From positions 1 through 64,000 of the forward strand of contig DASZBM010000002.1 of the NCBI GenBank assembly GCA_035944135.1: DNA of 64,000 nucleotides, read 5' to 3'. A program made the position numbers and the translations under genes. Source of the stretch: Acidobacteriaceae bacterium (lineage in GTDB: Bacteria > Acidobacteriota > Terriglobia > Terriglobales > Acidobacteriaceae). The notes under the pieces are model-generated. The model searched no databases and was not told where the DNA came from. It was given only the letters and a program-made list of their open reading frames with translations. Below, piece by piece: positions 444 to 6,352 of this stretch. Numbering within the stretch: the stretch's first letter is position 1; each line of letters opens with the position of its first letter.

Positions 444-629
444 GATTTCGTTGTGAGCGCGATTATAGCGATCGATGAGTGAGCGGTAGGTATCTGCAGA
501 CGTCATCCAAAATGACCAGTATGTCTCGAAAAAAAGTTTTCCATAAAGCCTTTGGGTGGTATTAATCTGTCTGCATTCATAACAACTAATCCGCCGCAGT
601 ACTAAACCGCTGAGTAATAGGAGACTGCT

Positions 630-2120
630 ATGGCAACCCCCTTCAAGCGCCTTGTGGTGTTGATGATGGAAAACCGCTCGTTTGACCACATGCTCGGTTT
701 TCTGAAGGCAAAAGACTATCCGATCGATGGACTGAACGGCGACGAAACTAATCCCGCCGCAGATGAGGGAACACCTATTAGGGTCAGTCCGGATGCCCGC
801 AACGTGAATGATCTAACTCCAGATCCAAGCCACGAGTTTCCCGACATCAACTGGCAGATATTTTCTAATGCCGAAGGCACCGACAACGGTCAGGAGAAAA
901 TGCAGGGCTTCGTCCAGAACTATGCAACTGATAGCAACGACGCTGTGCATGGTGCAGTTGTGATGAAGTGCTTTCACGAAGGTACACTGCCAATCCTATC
1001 GACACTGGCCAAGCAGTTTGCAGTTTCGGACAAATGGTTTTCATCGCTACCAGCATCAACCATTCCGAACCGGTTGTTCGCGCACGCCGCATGGTCTGGT
1101 GACTCAATCACGCAAGATGCAATCGCAGCGCCAGCAAAGGCCAGAACGATTTTCGAAGTTATCGACGATCCCAACAATCTAGATGCAACGTACCGCATCT
1201 ACAGCAGCGGCTCTACGATTCTATTGGCGAACATTTATCTGATGCATCATCAAGACAAATTCTTCGACATAGGAGACTTTGCTCAGGACTGTAAAGATAA
1301 TGTCATCCCTCAATACACATTTATCGAGCCGATCTACGATGGAGTGAACGCCAACAGCCAGCACCCTGATTTCGCGGTAGACAAAGGCGAGAGTCTTATC
1401 GCGGAGGTCTACAACGCTATACGGGACAGCCCATTGTGGGAGGACACCCTACTCTTAATTGTTTACGACGAGCATGGCGGCCTCTACGATCACGCGTATC
1501 CGCCTACTCTTCAGAACAACACTGGTTTGCCCGATCTACCGCCCACTAAGGATTTCGGGTTCCGCTTCGACCGCTTGGGGGTCAGAGTTCCGGCCGTCTT
1601 CGTGTCGCCATGGTTGGCGCCTGGAACTATTCTCGCGGATCAGTTTGACCATTGTTCGATTGTCAAGACCGTTCGGGAACTGTTTTGCCTTGATAAGCAA
1701 CCGTTCAATTGGAGAGAGGCGCAGGCGGCGAGCTTTGCCAACATTGCGAATCTGACCGAGATGAGGGTTGACAAACCCGCACTTCCCGACGTTGTAGCGT
1801 CAGACGGGACGATGCAGCTGTCGGCTAGGCGGAAAGTGCTTCCAGCAGCACACAGAGGCTCTCAGGCTCAGAGCCCTGGAACCATCCAAACCATCCAAGC
1901 TCTATCGAAAAGCACTCGAGTCCCCAAGCTTCCAGCTCAGCAACCGCCAAAACTCCGAAAGCCCACGGACCTCACAATGCTAATGGCCCAAGCGATGGAG
2001 TACTCACTCCACACACAAGGCATTAATTTGAGCAAGAGTACCCATCAAATCTACTCAGCCCAGGATGCAGTGAATTACCTCAAGGAAGCCAAGAACGCGA
2101 TAAAGGCTATAGGTCAATAA
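630..2120 (+). CDS. Phospholipase C / acid phosphatase family phosphoesterase
   Basis: The 496-residue product belongs to the alkaline-phosphatase-like superfamily branch of bacterial phospholipase C and AcpA-type acid phosphatases, which hydrolyse phosphate esters. The diagnostic MMENRSFDHMLG motif lies at residues 12-23. A central SSLPASTIPNR block and a metal-binding YDEHGG...YDH block (Asp280, Glu281, His282) follow. The last ~100 residues are a Pro/Lys/Gln-rich linker plus a helical tail. ATG 630 has a TAGGAG ribosome site about 8 bases upstream, and an in-frame TAG at 618-620 excludes a longer N-terminus. The motif therefore starts almost at the N-terminus and there is no signal peptide, which is unusual for a family that is mostly exported. 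Its stop codon overlaps the start of the outer-membrane barrel gene (TAATG). GC content is visibly lower than in the neighbours. Confidence 0.82.
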   Translation: MATPFKRLVVLMMENRSFDHMLGFLKAKDYPIDGLNGDETNPAADEGTPIRVSPDARNVNDLTPDPSHEFPDINWQIFSNAEGTDNGQEKMQGFVQNYATDSNDAVHGAVVMKCFHEGTLPILSTLAKQFAVSDKWFSSLPASTIPNRLFAHAAWSGDSITQDAIAAPAKARTIFEVIDDPNNLDATYRIYSSGSTILLANIYLMHHQDKFFDIGDFAQDCKDNVIPQYTFIEPIYDGVNANSQHPDFAVDKGESLIAEVYNAIRDSPLWEDTLLLIVYDEHGGLYDHAYPPTLQNNTGLPDLPPTKDFGFRFDRLGVRVPAVFVSPWLAPGTILADQFDHCSIVKTVRELFCLDKQPFNWREAQAASFANIANLTEMRVDKPALPDVVASDGTMQLSARRKVLPAAHRGSQAQSPGTIQTIQALSKSTRVPKLPAQQPPKLRKPTDLTMLMAQAMEYSLHTQGINLSKSTHQIYSAQDAVNYLKEAKNAIKAIGQ

Positions 2121-3484
2121 TGAGACGACTGTCATACGCGATCTTAGGTTCCACTGTCCTTTTTGCCACGTTCCTCCATGCACAGACGATCGGGGTCTCG
2201 TGCCCGCAGTTCTTCAAAGATGGCCATCAACGTATCGCCTGTGTGGAAGCCTTGCTTTCGCAGGATGACTATCATTTCACCCTCGCATCCTTGCCCCCCT
2301 CTAACGGGTTTGGCCTCGGGCTTGTTCTTATGCATTCGTTCAAAAGCACCAAGAGTGACAACGAGGTCGACCTCAGTGTCACTGCCGCCGGCACAACGAA
2401 TAATTCGTGGTACACAGGTGGCGATATTGTCTGGTCCCTACCTTTCCGCACGTCGGAAACGGACGGTAACGAGGCAAAGCTTGCATCCGCTACAGAAAAG
2501 AATTGGCATCAAACAGCATTTCATTTCCAGGTAGCTCACCAATCGGTGAAGACGCTGTACTTCTATGGAATTGGCTCAAGGGCTCCTGCTACTGCCTACG
2601 TCTACGCAGAAGACGACACATGGGAAAAGTTATCAGGTCGATTGCCAATCTCTCATCATATTGTGCTAGTAGCCGAAAACGGCGTGCAGGCGACGAATCT
2701 GCCTATGTCATCCGATCCGTCCGCCATCACCGCCAATGTGCCAAGCAGCCAAGTTCCAGGAATAGATCATCAACCCACCATGTTGGAGACCAACGTCGGT
2801 CTTCAAACCCGTGCTCTCAAACGTATTAGTCACGAAATCGAGAAATTGCCTAAAGGCGGGACCCCACACCTTCAACCATTATCGCAGTTCCTGTTCGAGA
2901 ACGACGCGACCGTCCAGTGGGATCATCCCCTCGACGGATCGCAATTGGCATTTAGGCAATTTCGTTTTGATGGCGACGAAAAGCTCAATCTGCGAGCATG
3001 GCTGCGGAACTCATTCGTTCCGGCGCAACACCCATTTGTCTATCATGTGCTCTGTCAGGACAGTAACAAGCAGACCGATGAATGCAATCTGGGTCAGTTT
3101 GATGTTAGAAGCAGACTCATCTTGTCAGGAACGCCAGCCAATAACCAAGTACCGTTCTATCTCCAACCCACATTGGGTGGCAGTGATATAGACAACAACG
3201 TCACCCTGCGTGGATGGGACAATTACCGGTTTCGCGGACGTGATGCCGCGCTGCTTCAGTTCGAGTCGAATTTCGTTGCATGGGATCCGTTTGGTGTATA
3301 CCTCTTTTACGACGCGGGCGGTGTTGGCCAGAACGCAGGCGACCTTTCTTTAGCTCACCTGCGGCAAGACGCAGGAGCGGGAGCATCGTTGCGCATACAA
3401 GGCAGTATTGTGGCGCAAACCTACTACGCGTGGGGCGCAGGCCACGGAGGCCGGTGGGGATACAATTTTGCAAAGGTTTTTTAA
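2120..3484 (+). CDS. BamA/Omp85-like outer-membrane beta-barrel protein
   Basis: The 454-residue product starts with a Sec signal peptide (hydrophobic to about residue 20, cleavage near LHA-QT). The C-terminal third reads like the Omp85 barrel: LRGWDNYRFRGRD resembles the conserved lid-lock RGF/RGY motif, and QFESNFVAWDPFGVYLFYDAGGV and the glycine/aromatic-rich end are typical amphipathic strands. The N-terminal ~200 residues also have alternating strand patterns (for example LGLVLMHSFKS). I see no POTRA repeats, and the protein is far shorter than BamA or TamA. Known Omp85 members insert or export proteins at the outer membrane; whether this one does is inference. It is translationally coupled (TAATG) to the preceding phospholipase C-type gene, which suggests a functional pair. 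The last residues are NFAKVF, ending in the aromatic residue expected for a barrel. Confidence 0.7.
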   Translation: MRRLSYAILGSTVLFATFLHAQTIGVSCPQFFKDGHQRIACVEALLSQDDYHFTLASLPPSNGFGLGLVLMHSFKSTKSDNEVDLSVTAAGTTNNSWYTGGDIVWSLPFRTSETDGNEAKLASATEKNWHQTAFHFQVAHQSVKTLYFYGIGSRAPATAYVYAEDDTWEKLSGRLPISHHIVLVAENGVQATNLPMSSDPSAITANVPSSQVPGIDHQPTMLETNVGLQTRALKRISHEIEKLPKGGTPHLQPLSQFLFENDATVQWDHPLDGSQLAFRQFRFDGDEKLNLRAWLRNSFVPAQHPFVYHVLCQDSNKQTDECNLGQFDVRSRLILSGTPANNQVPFYLQPTLGGSDIDNNVTLRGWDNYRFRGRDAALLQFESNFVAWDPFGVYLFYDAGGVGQNAGDLSLAHLRQDAGAGASLRIQGSIVAQTYYAWGAGHGGRWGYNFAKVF

Positions 3485-3612
3485 GCTCCAGTGTTGGCTG
3501 ATTGGGACATTGCGCCGCTTCGCCAAAAAAGCTTAGTGGGCCAGAGAAAGGCAGGCTACACGGCTACCTTCGCTGCGGCTCCGCCCACGTCTAACCTCTG
3601 CGGAGCCTCACC

Positions 3613-4282: not shown

Positions 4283-6352
4283 TTAAGTGGAAAGGCCGAT
4301 ATCGCCTTCGAGCACTTGCTGGACGAGCTTCGGCCTTTCGCCCGCTCGCCAAAGCCGCGCGGTATGCACGACGCGATAGCGAAGGGGTCCGCCGTCGGCG
4401 CGTTCACTGCGCGTGATCGGCCGCGGGATGCAGACGAACTCGGTGCGCATTTCATTCGCGGTGAGCCGAACCGTTGCATAGCCGTGGCCGCCAAGGTCGA
4501 CGAACTCGAGGTGTGGGGCGAGTTCGGGGTTCGAAGCGGCATGGGCGCGCTTCAGGTCAAAGCTCTTCGCGTACTCAAGGCACGACCGGACGCCGTGCTT
4601 GAGCAGCATGTTGTAGGTCCAGTCGGGTTTGCCTCCGCCGGGGCGATCGGCAAGGAACAGCGGACGAAGCGGATCGGCTTTCGGAAAACCATGCTCGAGC
4701 GCTTCCATGGTGCCAGCGCTCGAAAGCGACGCGCCGACGAAGCTCAGGCCTACGGGATAGAACTTGCCCGGCGGCAACTCCGACGTTGCGTAGCCCGCCC
4801 AGAAGCTGTGCCGGTCGCCGGAGACAATCGCGAAGCCCGTAATTTTCTCGTCGCGCACAAGGTCGTATATCTCGGCGCGCTCCCGATAAGCCGATCCATA
4901 GTCGCCGCTACTCATCAGGGCGTAGGTGGACTTCGGCCATGTCTCCTTTGTGAGTCCAGGCGGAAGGTTTTGCGGGTCGCTCCGCCAATCCGGCGCGCCT
5001 TCGGAATTGCCCCAAATCTTCCAGGTCGCATTGGATTTGCGTAGCTGGTCCTTGAACCAGGTCTTCTGGGTGGCGCCGAGGATCGTTTGCGGTGGCGCAT
5101 CCTTTCGCGTGTTCGGAACGTGCGCGCCGTTGAAGGAGATTTCGTTCGGCGGGTTGCCGCCATTGAAGGTACGGCCTCCATCAAAGATCTGGGCGGCATC
5201 CTCGGGGTACATGCCGGTGAATTCCGGACCAAAGCTGGCGACAGCTTTGTCGGTGAAGGGATCTGCACTGCGGTAACTATGCTGGTCGGTGATGATGAGA
5301 TCGAGATGCCGACCGTAGCGGTAGGACCGATAGCCGATGAGGCTGTTGATCGCCGTGAGATTGTTGGGCTCGAGGCCGAGGCCGTTCTCATCCCATTGCT
5401 CGATCCGCACATCCTTGACCGGGGGCGGACCGAACGTCTCGAGTGATCCGCTCGGCGGAGCGACGCGCGCGGGCAGATATTCGAACCATGCCTGGTTGGC
5501 GGCGATCTTGATGCTCTGTCCCGGGCGTTCTGGGCCACCTGCCTGCTGGATGCTCTGCCAGCCCTGCCAGGAGAATTCGTGATTGTCCCACATGGCCACG
5601 AACGGCCAGCGAGCCCTTGCATCCTGCAAGTCTGGATCGGCAAGATAGCCGCGATAGATCGCGCGGTAGCCTTCGACCGTCAGCGGATAGTGGAAGTGGC
5701 CGACCTTGCCGCCATCGGGGATCCGCGCGACCTCGTAAATCGTGCGGTCGTAGCGTGTCTTCACTTCGTCGGGGTATTCGACGACCTCGTATATGAAATC
5801 GCCGAGGTGCAGGACAAAACCGAGTTGGTCGGCCGGCGCCGCCCGCTCGTCCTCGAAGATCATGCGGCGGTAGGCGTTGAGCTTGCCTTCGTTGACGTCC
5901 TGGCAGCTAATGAAGGCGAAGTTGACCGGGCGCGGATCATTGGTTGTCGGCGCAGTAATCGTTCGGCCCACGCGACTTCCATTTCCCTCGCTGTCGGTAA
6001 AGCGATACCAGTACACCCTCGCCGGCCTCAGTCCACCCGCCAACACGCGGCACGTCCAGTCGGACTCCACCGAAACTCGCGCTGCCGCGCTCACCACGAC
6101 CCGCCGGAACGCAGGGTCTTCGGCCACTTCGACATGCAGCGTCCGCGGCGCAACACCTGCAGCGTAAGGCCGTCGAGTCCACAACAGAACGCTGCTATGG
6201 TCCGGGTCGCCCGAAGCGACGCCCTCTGGGAACATCGTCCGTTGCTCACGCCACGCAACCCGCGATGCGTGCGCGACGCCATTGCCCCACGCCGCCGTGG
6301 CGCCGACGCTCAGAGCTGCCTGGAGAAACGCGCGGCGATCGATGCGCGACAT
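4283..6352 (-). CDS. phoD: PhoD-like alkaline phosphatase/phosphodiesterase, Tat-exported
   Basis: The 689-residue protein opens with a twin-arginine signal (RIDRRAFLQAALSVGATAAW, cleavage near AHA). It continues with the PhoD N-terminal domain (EGVASGDPDHSSVLLWTRR) and the metallophosphatase domain with FAFISCQDVNEGK, LHLGDFIYE, WDNHEFSW and, further on, SGDRHSFWAG. These match the Fe/Ca-dependent PhoD family, which releases phosphate from phosphomonoesters and diesters outside the cytoplasmic membrane. At about 690 residues it is longer than Bacillus PhoD, as often seen for Tat-exported members. A GGAGGA ribosome site lies just before ATG 6352. It is a single gene with an 840-bp region upstream. 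No phosphate-regulon (Pho box) site was recognised by eye. Confidence 0.9.
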   Translation of the reverse strand: MSRIDRRAFLQAALSVGATAAWGNGVAHASRVAWREQRTMFPEGVASGDPDHSSVLLWTRRPYAAGVAPRTLHVEVAEDPAFRRVVVSAAARVSVESDWTCRVLAGGLRPARVYWYRFTDSEGNGSRVGRTITAPTTNDPRPVNFAFISCQDVNEGKLNAYRRMIFEDERAAPADQLGFVLHLGDFIYEVVEYPDEVKTRYDRTIYEVARIPDGGKVGHFHYPLTVEGYRAIYRGYLADPDLQDARARWPFVAMWDNHEFSWQGWQSIQQAGGPERPGQSIKIAANQAWFEYLPARVAPPSGSLETFGPPPVKDVRIEQWDENGLGLEPNNLTAINSLIGYRSYRYGRHLDLIITDQHSYRSADPFTDKAVASFGPEFTGMYPEDAAQIFDGGRTFNGGNPPNEISFNGAHVPNTRKDAPPQTILGATQKTWFKDQLRKSNATWKIWGNSEGAPDWRSDPQNLPPGLTKETWPKSTYALMSSGDYGSAYRERAEIYDLVRDEKITGFAIVSGDRHSFWAGYATSELPPGKFYPVGLSFVGASLSSAGTMEALEHGFPKADPLRPLFLADRPGGGKPDWTYNMLLKHGVRSCLEYAKSFDLKRAHAASNPELAPHLEFVDLGGHGYATVRLTANEMRTEFVCIPRPITRSERADGGPLRYRVVHTARLWRAGERPKLVQQVLEGDIGLST

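Follow-up and report, generated by a model that had tools for sequence, protein, structure and literature searches.

The well-studied Omp85 proteins of the outer membrane assemble outer-membrane proteins or translocate proteins. Among the members of the phosphoesterase superfamily PF04185, PlcH, PlcN and AcpA are exported enzymes. The PlcP-type phospholipase C (PLC) of phosphate-starved bacteria is intracellular and acts in lipid remodelling. A lipase is coupled to an Omp85-type barrel of 16 strands in the type Vd, or patatin-Omp85, systems such as PlpD and FplA, where a patatin-like enzyme with a Sec signal, a POTRA domain and the barrel are all found in one polypeptide. The PlpD lipase is kept in the periplasm, and phospholipid levels are altered (PMC11116518). 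Omp85 barrels without an N-terminal domain (the 'noNterm' subfamily) are described by Heinz and Lithgow (2014, PMC4104836) together with other enzyme-linked Omp85 types; in the part of that survey available to us, none of these is paired with a PLC, and noNterm proteins are reported without an enzyme partner in their operon. In the Arabidopsis phospholipase NPC4, seven catalytic residues (E23, N24, H79, T158, H264, D299 and E300) are known, and activity is almost abolished when the C-terminal domain is absent (PMC9837106).

The window, which is the whole stretch of 64,000 nucleotides analysed here, carries a two-gene locus that combines an NPC-type PLC with an Omp85-like barrel. An earlier note had placed the pair at 630-3484, and two ORFs, 630-2120 and 2120-3484, were recovered there on the forward strand (Table 1). 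A search of open-access papers returned no description of such a PLC-barrel pair.

Table 1. Features of the PLC-barrel locus in window coordinates
Feature	Position	Strand	Description or basis
In-frame TAG stop 5' of the PLC start	618..620	+	sequence; rules out an N-terminal signal peptide
Shine-Dalgarno-like AGGAG of the PLC	619..623	+	sequence; fits ATG at 630
PLC gene	630..2120	+	496 aa, NPC-type phospholipase C, PF04185, no signal peptide
Phosphoesterase domain of the PLC (aa 1-385)	630..1784	+	
C-terminal helical module of the PLC (aa 430-496)	1917..2117	+	position, prediction; predicted helices 448-462 and 477-495
TAATG, PLC stop overlapping barrel start	2118..2122	+	sequence
Barrel gene	2120..3484	+	454 aa, predicted POTRA-less Omp85-fold outer-membrane barrel, 16 predicted strands (aa 51-450)
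Putative barrel signal peptide (aa 1-21)	2120..2182	+	sequence inspection
Barrel N-terminal segment (aa 28-41)	2201..2242	+	conserved Cys28 and Cys41, predicted helix
Omp85 L6-type signature LGGSDIDNNVTLRGWDNYRFRGRD (aa 352-375)	3173..3244	+	conservation

The pairing of PLC and barrel in soil Acidobacteria is real and conserved. This was established in two surveys, which have some loci in common. The first covered about 400 genomes, made up of the class and its nearest relatives, and every barrel match below 1e-50 was directly preceded by a PLC match in the same orientation (51/51 loci, the window included); weak generic Omp85 matches in these genomes had no PLC directly upstream. For the second, 84,980 species were scanned with the barrel alignment, since a single-sequence scan of genome contigs with the window barrel gave no match where the alignment succeeded. 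The scan yielded 80 barrel loci, nearly all from Acidobacteriota. A PLC lies within 700 bases upstream in 70 of them and at 758 bases in one, contig ends cut seven, and the only true exceptions are an orphan barrel (L218) and a fragment (L242); that is, the PLC is directly upstream on the same strand in 71 of the 73 testable loci. The survey for co-occurrence that the earlier note had proposed therefore speaks for its pair. L235, a locus with the label Rhodanobacteraceae, falls within Granulicella in the tree and is probably misbinned. The paired PLCs form a single clade (support 100/97), and PLC and barrel distances are correlated (r = 0.88), although common ancestry alone could produce such a correlation. 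Named isolates with the system are Granulicella aggregans M8UP14, G. paludicola DSM 22464 and Acidobacteriaceae bacterium KBS 146. No other gene, whether for lipids, secretion or a client outer-membrane protein, is generally conserved around the operon in relatives.

No intact single-chain fusion of PLC and barrel was found among the loci. A 1385-aa open frame around an unpaired PLC (L162) was judged to be open by chance. A 222-aa ORF that joins the PLC N-terminus to the barrel C-terminus (L147:3674-4342) was judged a deletion remnant; it apparently arose by an internal deletion of the operon and comes from a MAG. The GC content of the window pair (501-3500) is about 0.52, compared with 0.60 for the whole window, whereas in other genomes it averages 0.582 for the operon and 0.584 for the flank. 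This suggests that the window copy may have been acquired recently.

The enzyme belongs clearly with the NPC-type PLCs. It matches the Pfam family Phosphoesterase (PF04185) with an E-value of 2.1e-68, and its best solved relative is Arabidopsis NPC4 (8hav), at 8.3e-67 for the sequence alone and 5.7e-95 with a family profile. An AlphaFold model (mean pLDDT 70.8, pTM 0.73) is closest in fold to the fungal RePLC (Z 35.9) and to NPC4 (Z 34.6 over 336 residues, 35% identity). PlcN, AcpA and PlcH, of the same superfamily, are more distant (Z 25-30), and all of these are well above the sulfatases. All seven catalytic residues of NPC4 have a counterpart in the window PLC (E14, N15, H68, T144, H245, D280 and E281) and are invariant or at least 90% conserved across the family. 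Given the NPC4 fold and the full set of catalytic residues, the window PLC is probably active. Where NPC4 has its C-terminal helical domain, helices are also predicted in the window PLC (448-462 and 477-495). Unlike NPC4 and RePLC, the window PLC is coupled to a gene for an outer-membrane barrel.

A second peculiarity is the lack of an export signal. The in-frame TAG is exactly 12 bases ahead of the PLC ATG at 630, as the earlier note had seen when it described the enzyme as having no signal peptide. For paired homologues from the first survey, 14-30 residues commonly separate the last in-frame stop from the ENRSFDH motif; in the 66 named loci this distance has a median of 33 and is at most 20 in 12 loci. 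Because the first strand of the fold starts about 10 residues ahead of the motif, a Sec or Tat signal would not fit in most paired PLCs. Where the upstream open frame is longer, it mostly contains no strongly hydrophobic segment. In the nearest unpaired paralogues, too, a start codon mostly falls just ahead of ENRSFDH, which argues that the absent signal is a trait of the NPC-like subfamily and not of pairing with a barrel. The generalisation that PLC-family proteins are usually exported, from which the earlier note had started, thus fails for this subfamily.

In contrast to the enzyme, the barrel protein appears to be exported. Its N-terminus, MRRLSYAILGSTVLFATFLHA followed by QT, has by inspection a signal-peptide pattern ending in HA before the QT, in line with the signal-bearing barrel described previously. 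The PLC TAA (2118-2120) and the barrel ATG (2120-2122) have one base in common, as had been noted, and this overlap suggests translational coupling of the two genes. Searches of Pfam and PHROGs with the barrel gave no match, and in NCBIfam it reached Omp85_fam at E 1.2e-4, weaker than the cut-off of that family. An AlphaFold model built with 65 sequences (pLDDT 84.0, pTM 0.80) has 16 strands within residues 51-450, a short N-terminal helix and no POTRA; about 29 residues, partly helical, separate the signal peptide from the first strand. Foldseek placed BamA and TamA at the head of its matches (E 2e-9 to 5e-9), and VIA-align gave Z-scores of 23.8 for Sam50, 23.4 for TamA, 23.2 for BamA and 21.5 for CdiB and FhaC. 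An Omp85 fold without POTRA is therefore predicted, as proposed before, and the possibility that the barrel is unrelated to Omp85 falls away with the model. Cys28 and Cys41, ahead of the strands, are at least 90% conserved.

The motif first noticed as RGW...RFRGRD is part of LRGW...YRFRGRD at aa 363-375, within the L6-type region, and LRGW fits the (V/L)RG(F/Y/W) signature of Omp85 loop L6. Across 65 homologues, LGG and YRFR in this region either do not vary or reach at least 90% conservation. The equivalent in generic POTRA-less relatives is LRGF/Y..RFR, and most paired relatives have kept YRFR and lost RG. On this pattern of conservation, the motif in the window barrel is not a chance occurrence. 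In four loci (L139, L140, L144 and L145), generic POTRA-less barrels adjoin a conserved protein of 520-550 aa with a KFYPDDPL-like start; two of these neighbours were scanned and had no Pfam match.

The loci contain a third module, which was not part of the earlier note, as were neither the fused and split architectures nor the regulatory link described below. In the majority (class I), a PLC of about 405-412 aa is followed by a small ORF, usually of 80-170 aa, and then by the barrel; in two class I loci (L113 and L115) there is no small ORF by the criterion used. In class II, which includes the window, the PLC is longer and its C-terminus overlaps or abuts the barrel start. The small-ORF profile matches the C-terminus of class II PLCs with E-values down to 3e-19, and a combined small-module profile matches down to 1e-27, while unpaired PLCs do not reach 0.01 with the small-module profiles. 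The window module was not reported as a member of the small-module family over the full ORF set; direct comparison gave an E-value of about 0.05, and the one profile-profile comparison gave 0.0096 at low probability. The modules of the window and of its two nearest relatives, L123 and L125, have diverged too far for a placement by sequence, and have position, length and predicted helices in common. From its position, its helices and the fused members found elsewhere (3e-19), the window module is regarded as the positional equivalent of the class I small ORF. In a tree rooted at the midpoint, class I forms a single clade (100/100) that arises from within class II, and L123 (78% identity) and L125 are the companions of the window PLC. 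On this tree the fusion is ancestral and the split occurred once.

The class I PLCs end near residue 405-412, where the catalytic domain of NPC4 ends. Since NPC4 needs the domain that follows at this position, the helical module is, by analogy, a likely activator of the PLC. Most relatives encode the module as a gene of its own, unlike the NPC4 domain, to which it has no detectable sequence match; small-module searches also found no relative in the PDB and no match in Pfam. The small proteins of class I have a conserved core and Lys-rich tails, which could bind an anionic membrane. A short hydrophobic motif like (L/I)xIAAxA recurs in these tails (for example in L091, L096 and L101).

In some relatives, the operon may be under a common control with other genes. 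Sites resembling TGAAACG-N15-TCACTAT (score 12 or more of 14) are located 5' of the PLC in 29/67 loci, compared with 0.2 in shuffled sequence and 2 on the reverse strand, and the spacer is nearly always 15 bases. A sigma-W-like promoter, TGAAAC-N-CGTA, was considered and dropped, the conserved second box being TCACTAT-like. Across 12 genomes, 49 sites were counted versus 8 for a control pattern. The genes that follow the motif encode zf-HC2 anti-sigma factors, a signal-less phage-type lysozyme, a class 3 lipase and a pro-kumamolisin peptidase; many other sites are inside or beside unrelated genes. In the anti-sigma loci, genes for an ECF sigma factor and a membrane-spanning zf-HC2 anti-sigma factor are accompanied by one for a 270-aa protein of unknown family and one for a TPR-CHAT protein whose start resembles a lipobox (by inspection). 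Six such loci (L314, L315, L316, L317, L318 and L319) have the motif TGAAACG-N15-KCACYA in common. The PLC operon is beside or within about 10 kb of an ECF/CHAT locus in four genomes (G170, G294, G240 and G293), where about 0.05 would be expected by chance according to a rough calculation based on genome size. A PLC-operon site (score at least 12) is present in 7/15 genomes with the anti-sigma factor and in 0/7 without it (Fisher p 0.051, uncorrected for relatedness). Several genomes carry the operon without the regulator, and in the window genome neither the promoter site nor an ECF/CHAT locus was found, so that the link is not claimed for the window.

A comparable arrangement is known from the type III-E CRISPR system Csx29-Csx30-CASP-sigma, where a TPR-CHAT protein is linked to an ECF sigma factor and the protease can control the sigma factor by cleaving its inhibitor (PMC10028731). 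The loci in relatives differ from it in the lack of CRISPR, in the zf-HC2 membrane anti-sigma factor and in the lipoprotein-like CHAT protein.

The reading that we favour, although we put it at somewhat less than an even chance, is an envelope-lipid system in which a PLC at the cytoplasm or inner membrane is co-expressed with a separately exported barrel. Its three modules, the NPC-type PLC, the helical module and the POTRA-less Omp85-fold barrel, would have one origin in Acidobacteriota. The PLC would remain cytoplasmic or sit at the cytoplasmic side of the inner membrane and, like NPC4, cleave phospholipids to diacylglycerol; the helical module, fused in the window and encoded by a small gene in most relatives, would probably switch it on. 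The barrel most likely travels by Sec to the outer membrane, where it would act in the same lipid or envelope response from the outer-membrane side, and the enzyme would not be threaded through it. This account is based on the pairing, the single PLC clade, the missing signal peptide in most homologues, the NPC4-like fold, the intact catalytic residues, the likeness in position between the helical module and the domain that NPC4 needs, the Lys-rich tails of the class I small proteins and the predicted POTRA-less Omp85 fold of the barrel. The common promoter motif and the adjacency in relatives to an ECF sigma factor, a membrane anti-sigma factor and a lipoprotein-like TPR-CHAT protein points to an envelope response. 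PlcP offers an analogy as an intracellular, lipid-remodelling PLC, but is of another enzyme family and has no barrel. PlpD provides a precedent for an Omp85-linked lipase with a role in lipids, but has access to Sec, as the window PLC does not. Several observations count against this account: the well-studied Omp85 proteins act in protein assembly or translocation, Pho-box-like sites upstream of the PLC are no commoner than in shuffled sequence, no other lipid gene is conserved nearby, and the ECF/CHAT link is absent from the window genome.

Of the two readings offered in the earlier note, these results agree better with a cytoplasmic enzyme and a barrel that acts separately than with a split lipase-barrel system. 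In the latter, a PlpD-like split type Vd, the enzyme would reach the periplasm by Sec and be held or translocated by the barrel. PlpD, in which a lipase and an Omp85 barrel are joined (PMC11116518), resembles the pair in function, which speaks for this reading, but enzyme and barrel are here encoded by two genes, POTRA is lacking, and the PLC is of the PF04185 family and not a patatin. Above all, neither the window enzyme nor its relatives have a Sec or Tat signal, which largely refutes this reading and leaves it very improbable. A less unlikely, though still doubtful, proposal is that the folded PLC crosses the envelope independently of Sec, with the helical module as a targeting or chaperone part, and passes through or docks on the barrel. 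This would be a new two-partner device; the locus departs from two-partner secretion (type Vb) in its signal-less enzyme, the lack of POTRA and the absence of a TPS domain among the Pfam matches. Near-obligate pairing in the fixed order of enzyme then barrel, the TpsB-like 16-strand fold with its matches to FhaC and CdiB, the small protein with conserved core and basic tail, and the occurrence in relatives of the same promoter motif before other signal-less hydrolases would all suit such a device. Against this, there is no known route over the inner membrane for the PLC, the barrel has no POTRA to receive a substrate, no other secretion gene is conserved near the operon, and the unpaired paralogues mostly lack signals as well, so that signal loss is not tied to the barrel.

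The pair could also be read as a lysis or suicide effector: the PLC would attack the inner membrane from inside, the barrel would weaken the outer membrane, and the triggered cell would lyse. This we consider unlikely. The operon adjoins an ECF-sigma/TPR-CHAT (caspase-like) locus in relatives and has a promoter motif in common with it, the motif also stands before genes for the signal-less phage-type lysozyme, the class 3 lipase and the pro-kumamolisin, and control of an ECF sigma factor by a TPR-CHAT protease is on record (PMC10028731), but the CHAT proteins look by inspection like lipoproteins, unlike the cytoplasmic Csx29, and the regulator is missing from the window genome and several others with the operon. 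Less probable still is that the barrel serves solely in assembly at the outer membrane, as a dedicated factor, and that the PLC only tunes the lipid composition for it. Membrane-protein biogenesis is proposed for noNterm Omp85 proteins by Heinz and Lithgow (PMC4104836), and the source genome encodes two POTRA-bearing Omp85 proteins elsewhere, so that the window barrel is an additional one. However, the operon has no conserved neighbour that could be a client outer-membrane protein. The near-obligate PLC partner distinguishes the pair from the noNterm subfamily as described. A wider formulation, in which a cytosolic PLC, a separable activator and a dedicated Omp85 barrel, controlled in some lineages by ECF sigma and TPR-CHAT, would act by Sec/Tat-free export or by breaking the envelope from both sides, is likewise speculative, and we doubt it to about the same degree as Sec-independent export.

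The near-obligate pairing of a non-exportable enzyme with an Omp85 barrel breaks the logic of the type V lipase-barrel systems. Two explanations offer themselves: export of the enzyme by an unknown route, or a role of Omp85 barrels in lipids or the envelope apart from protein translocation. The natural split between catalytic domain and probable activator makes the mechanism of NPC activation directly testable in bacteria.

The surroundings of the pair in the window can be described briefly. Within positions 1-447, the C-terminus of a DNA gyrase A-like protein (1-277, by inspection) comes first, and GC-rich inverted repeats lie behind it at about 371-447. Shortly after the pair, on the reverse strand (4283-6352), is a gene for a PhoD-type phosphatase with a Tat-like start, a neighbour that does not recur in relatives.
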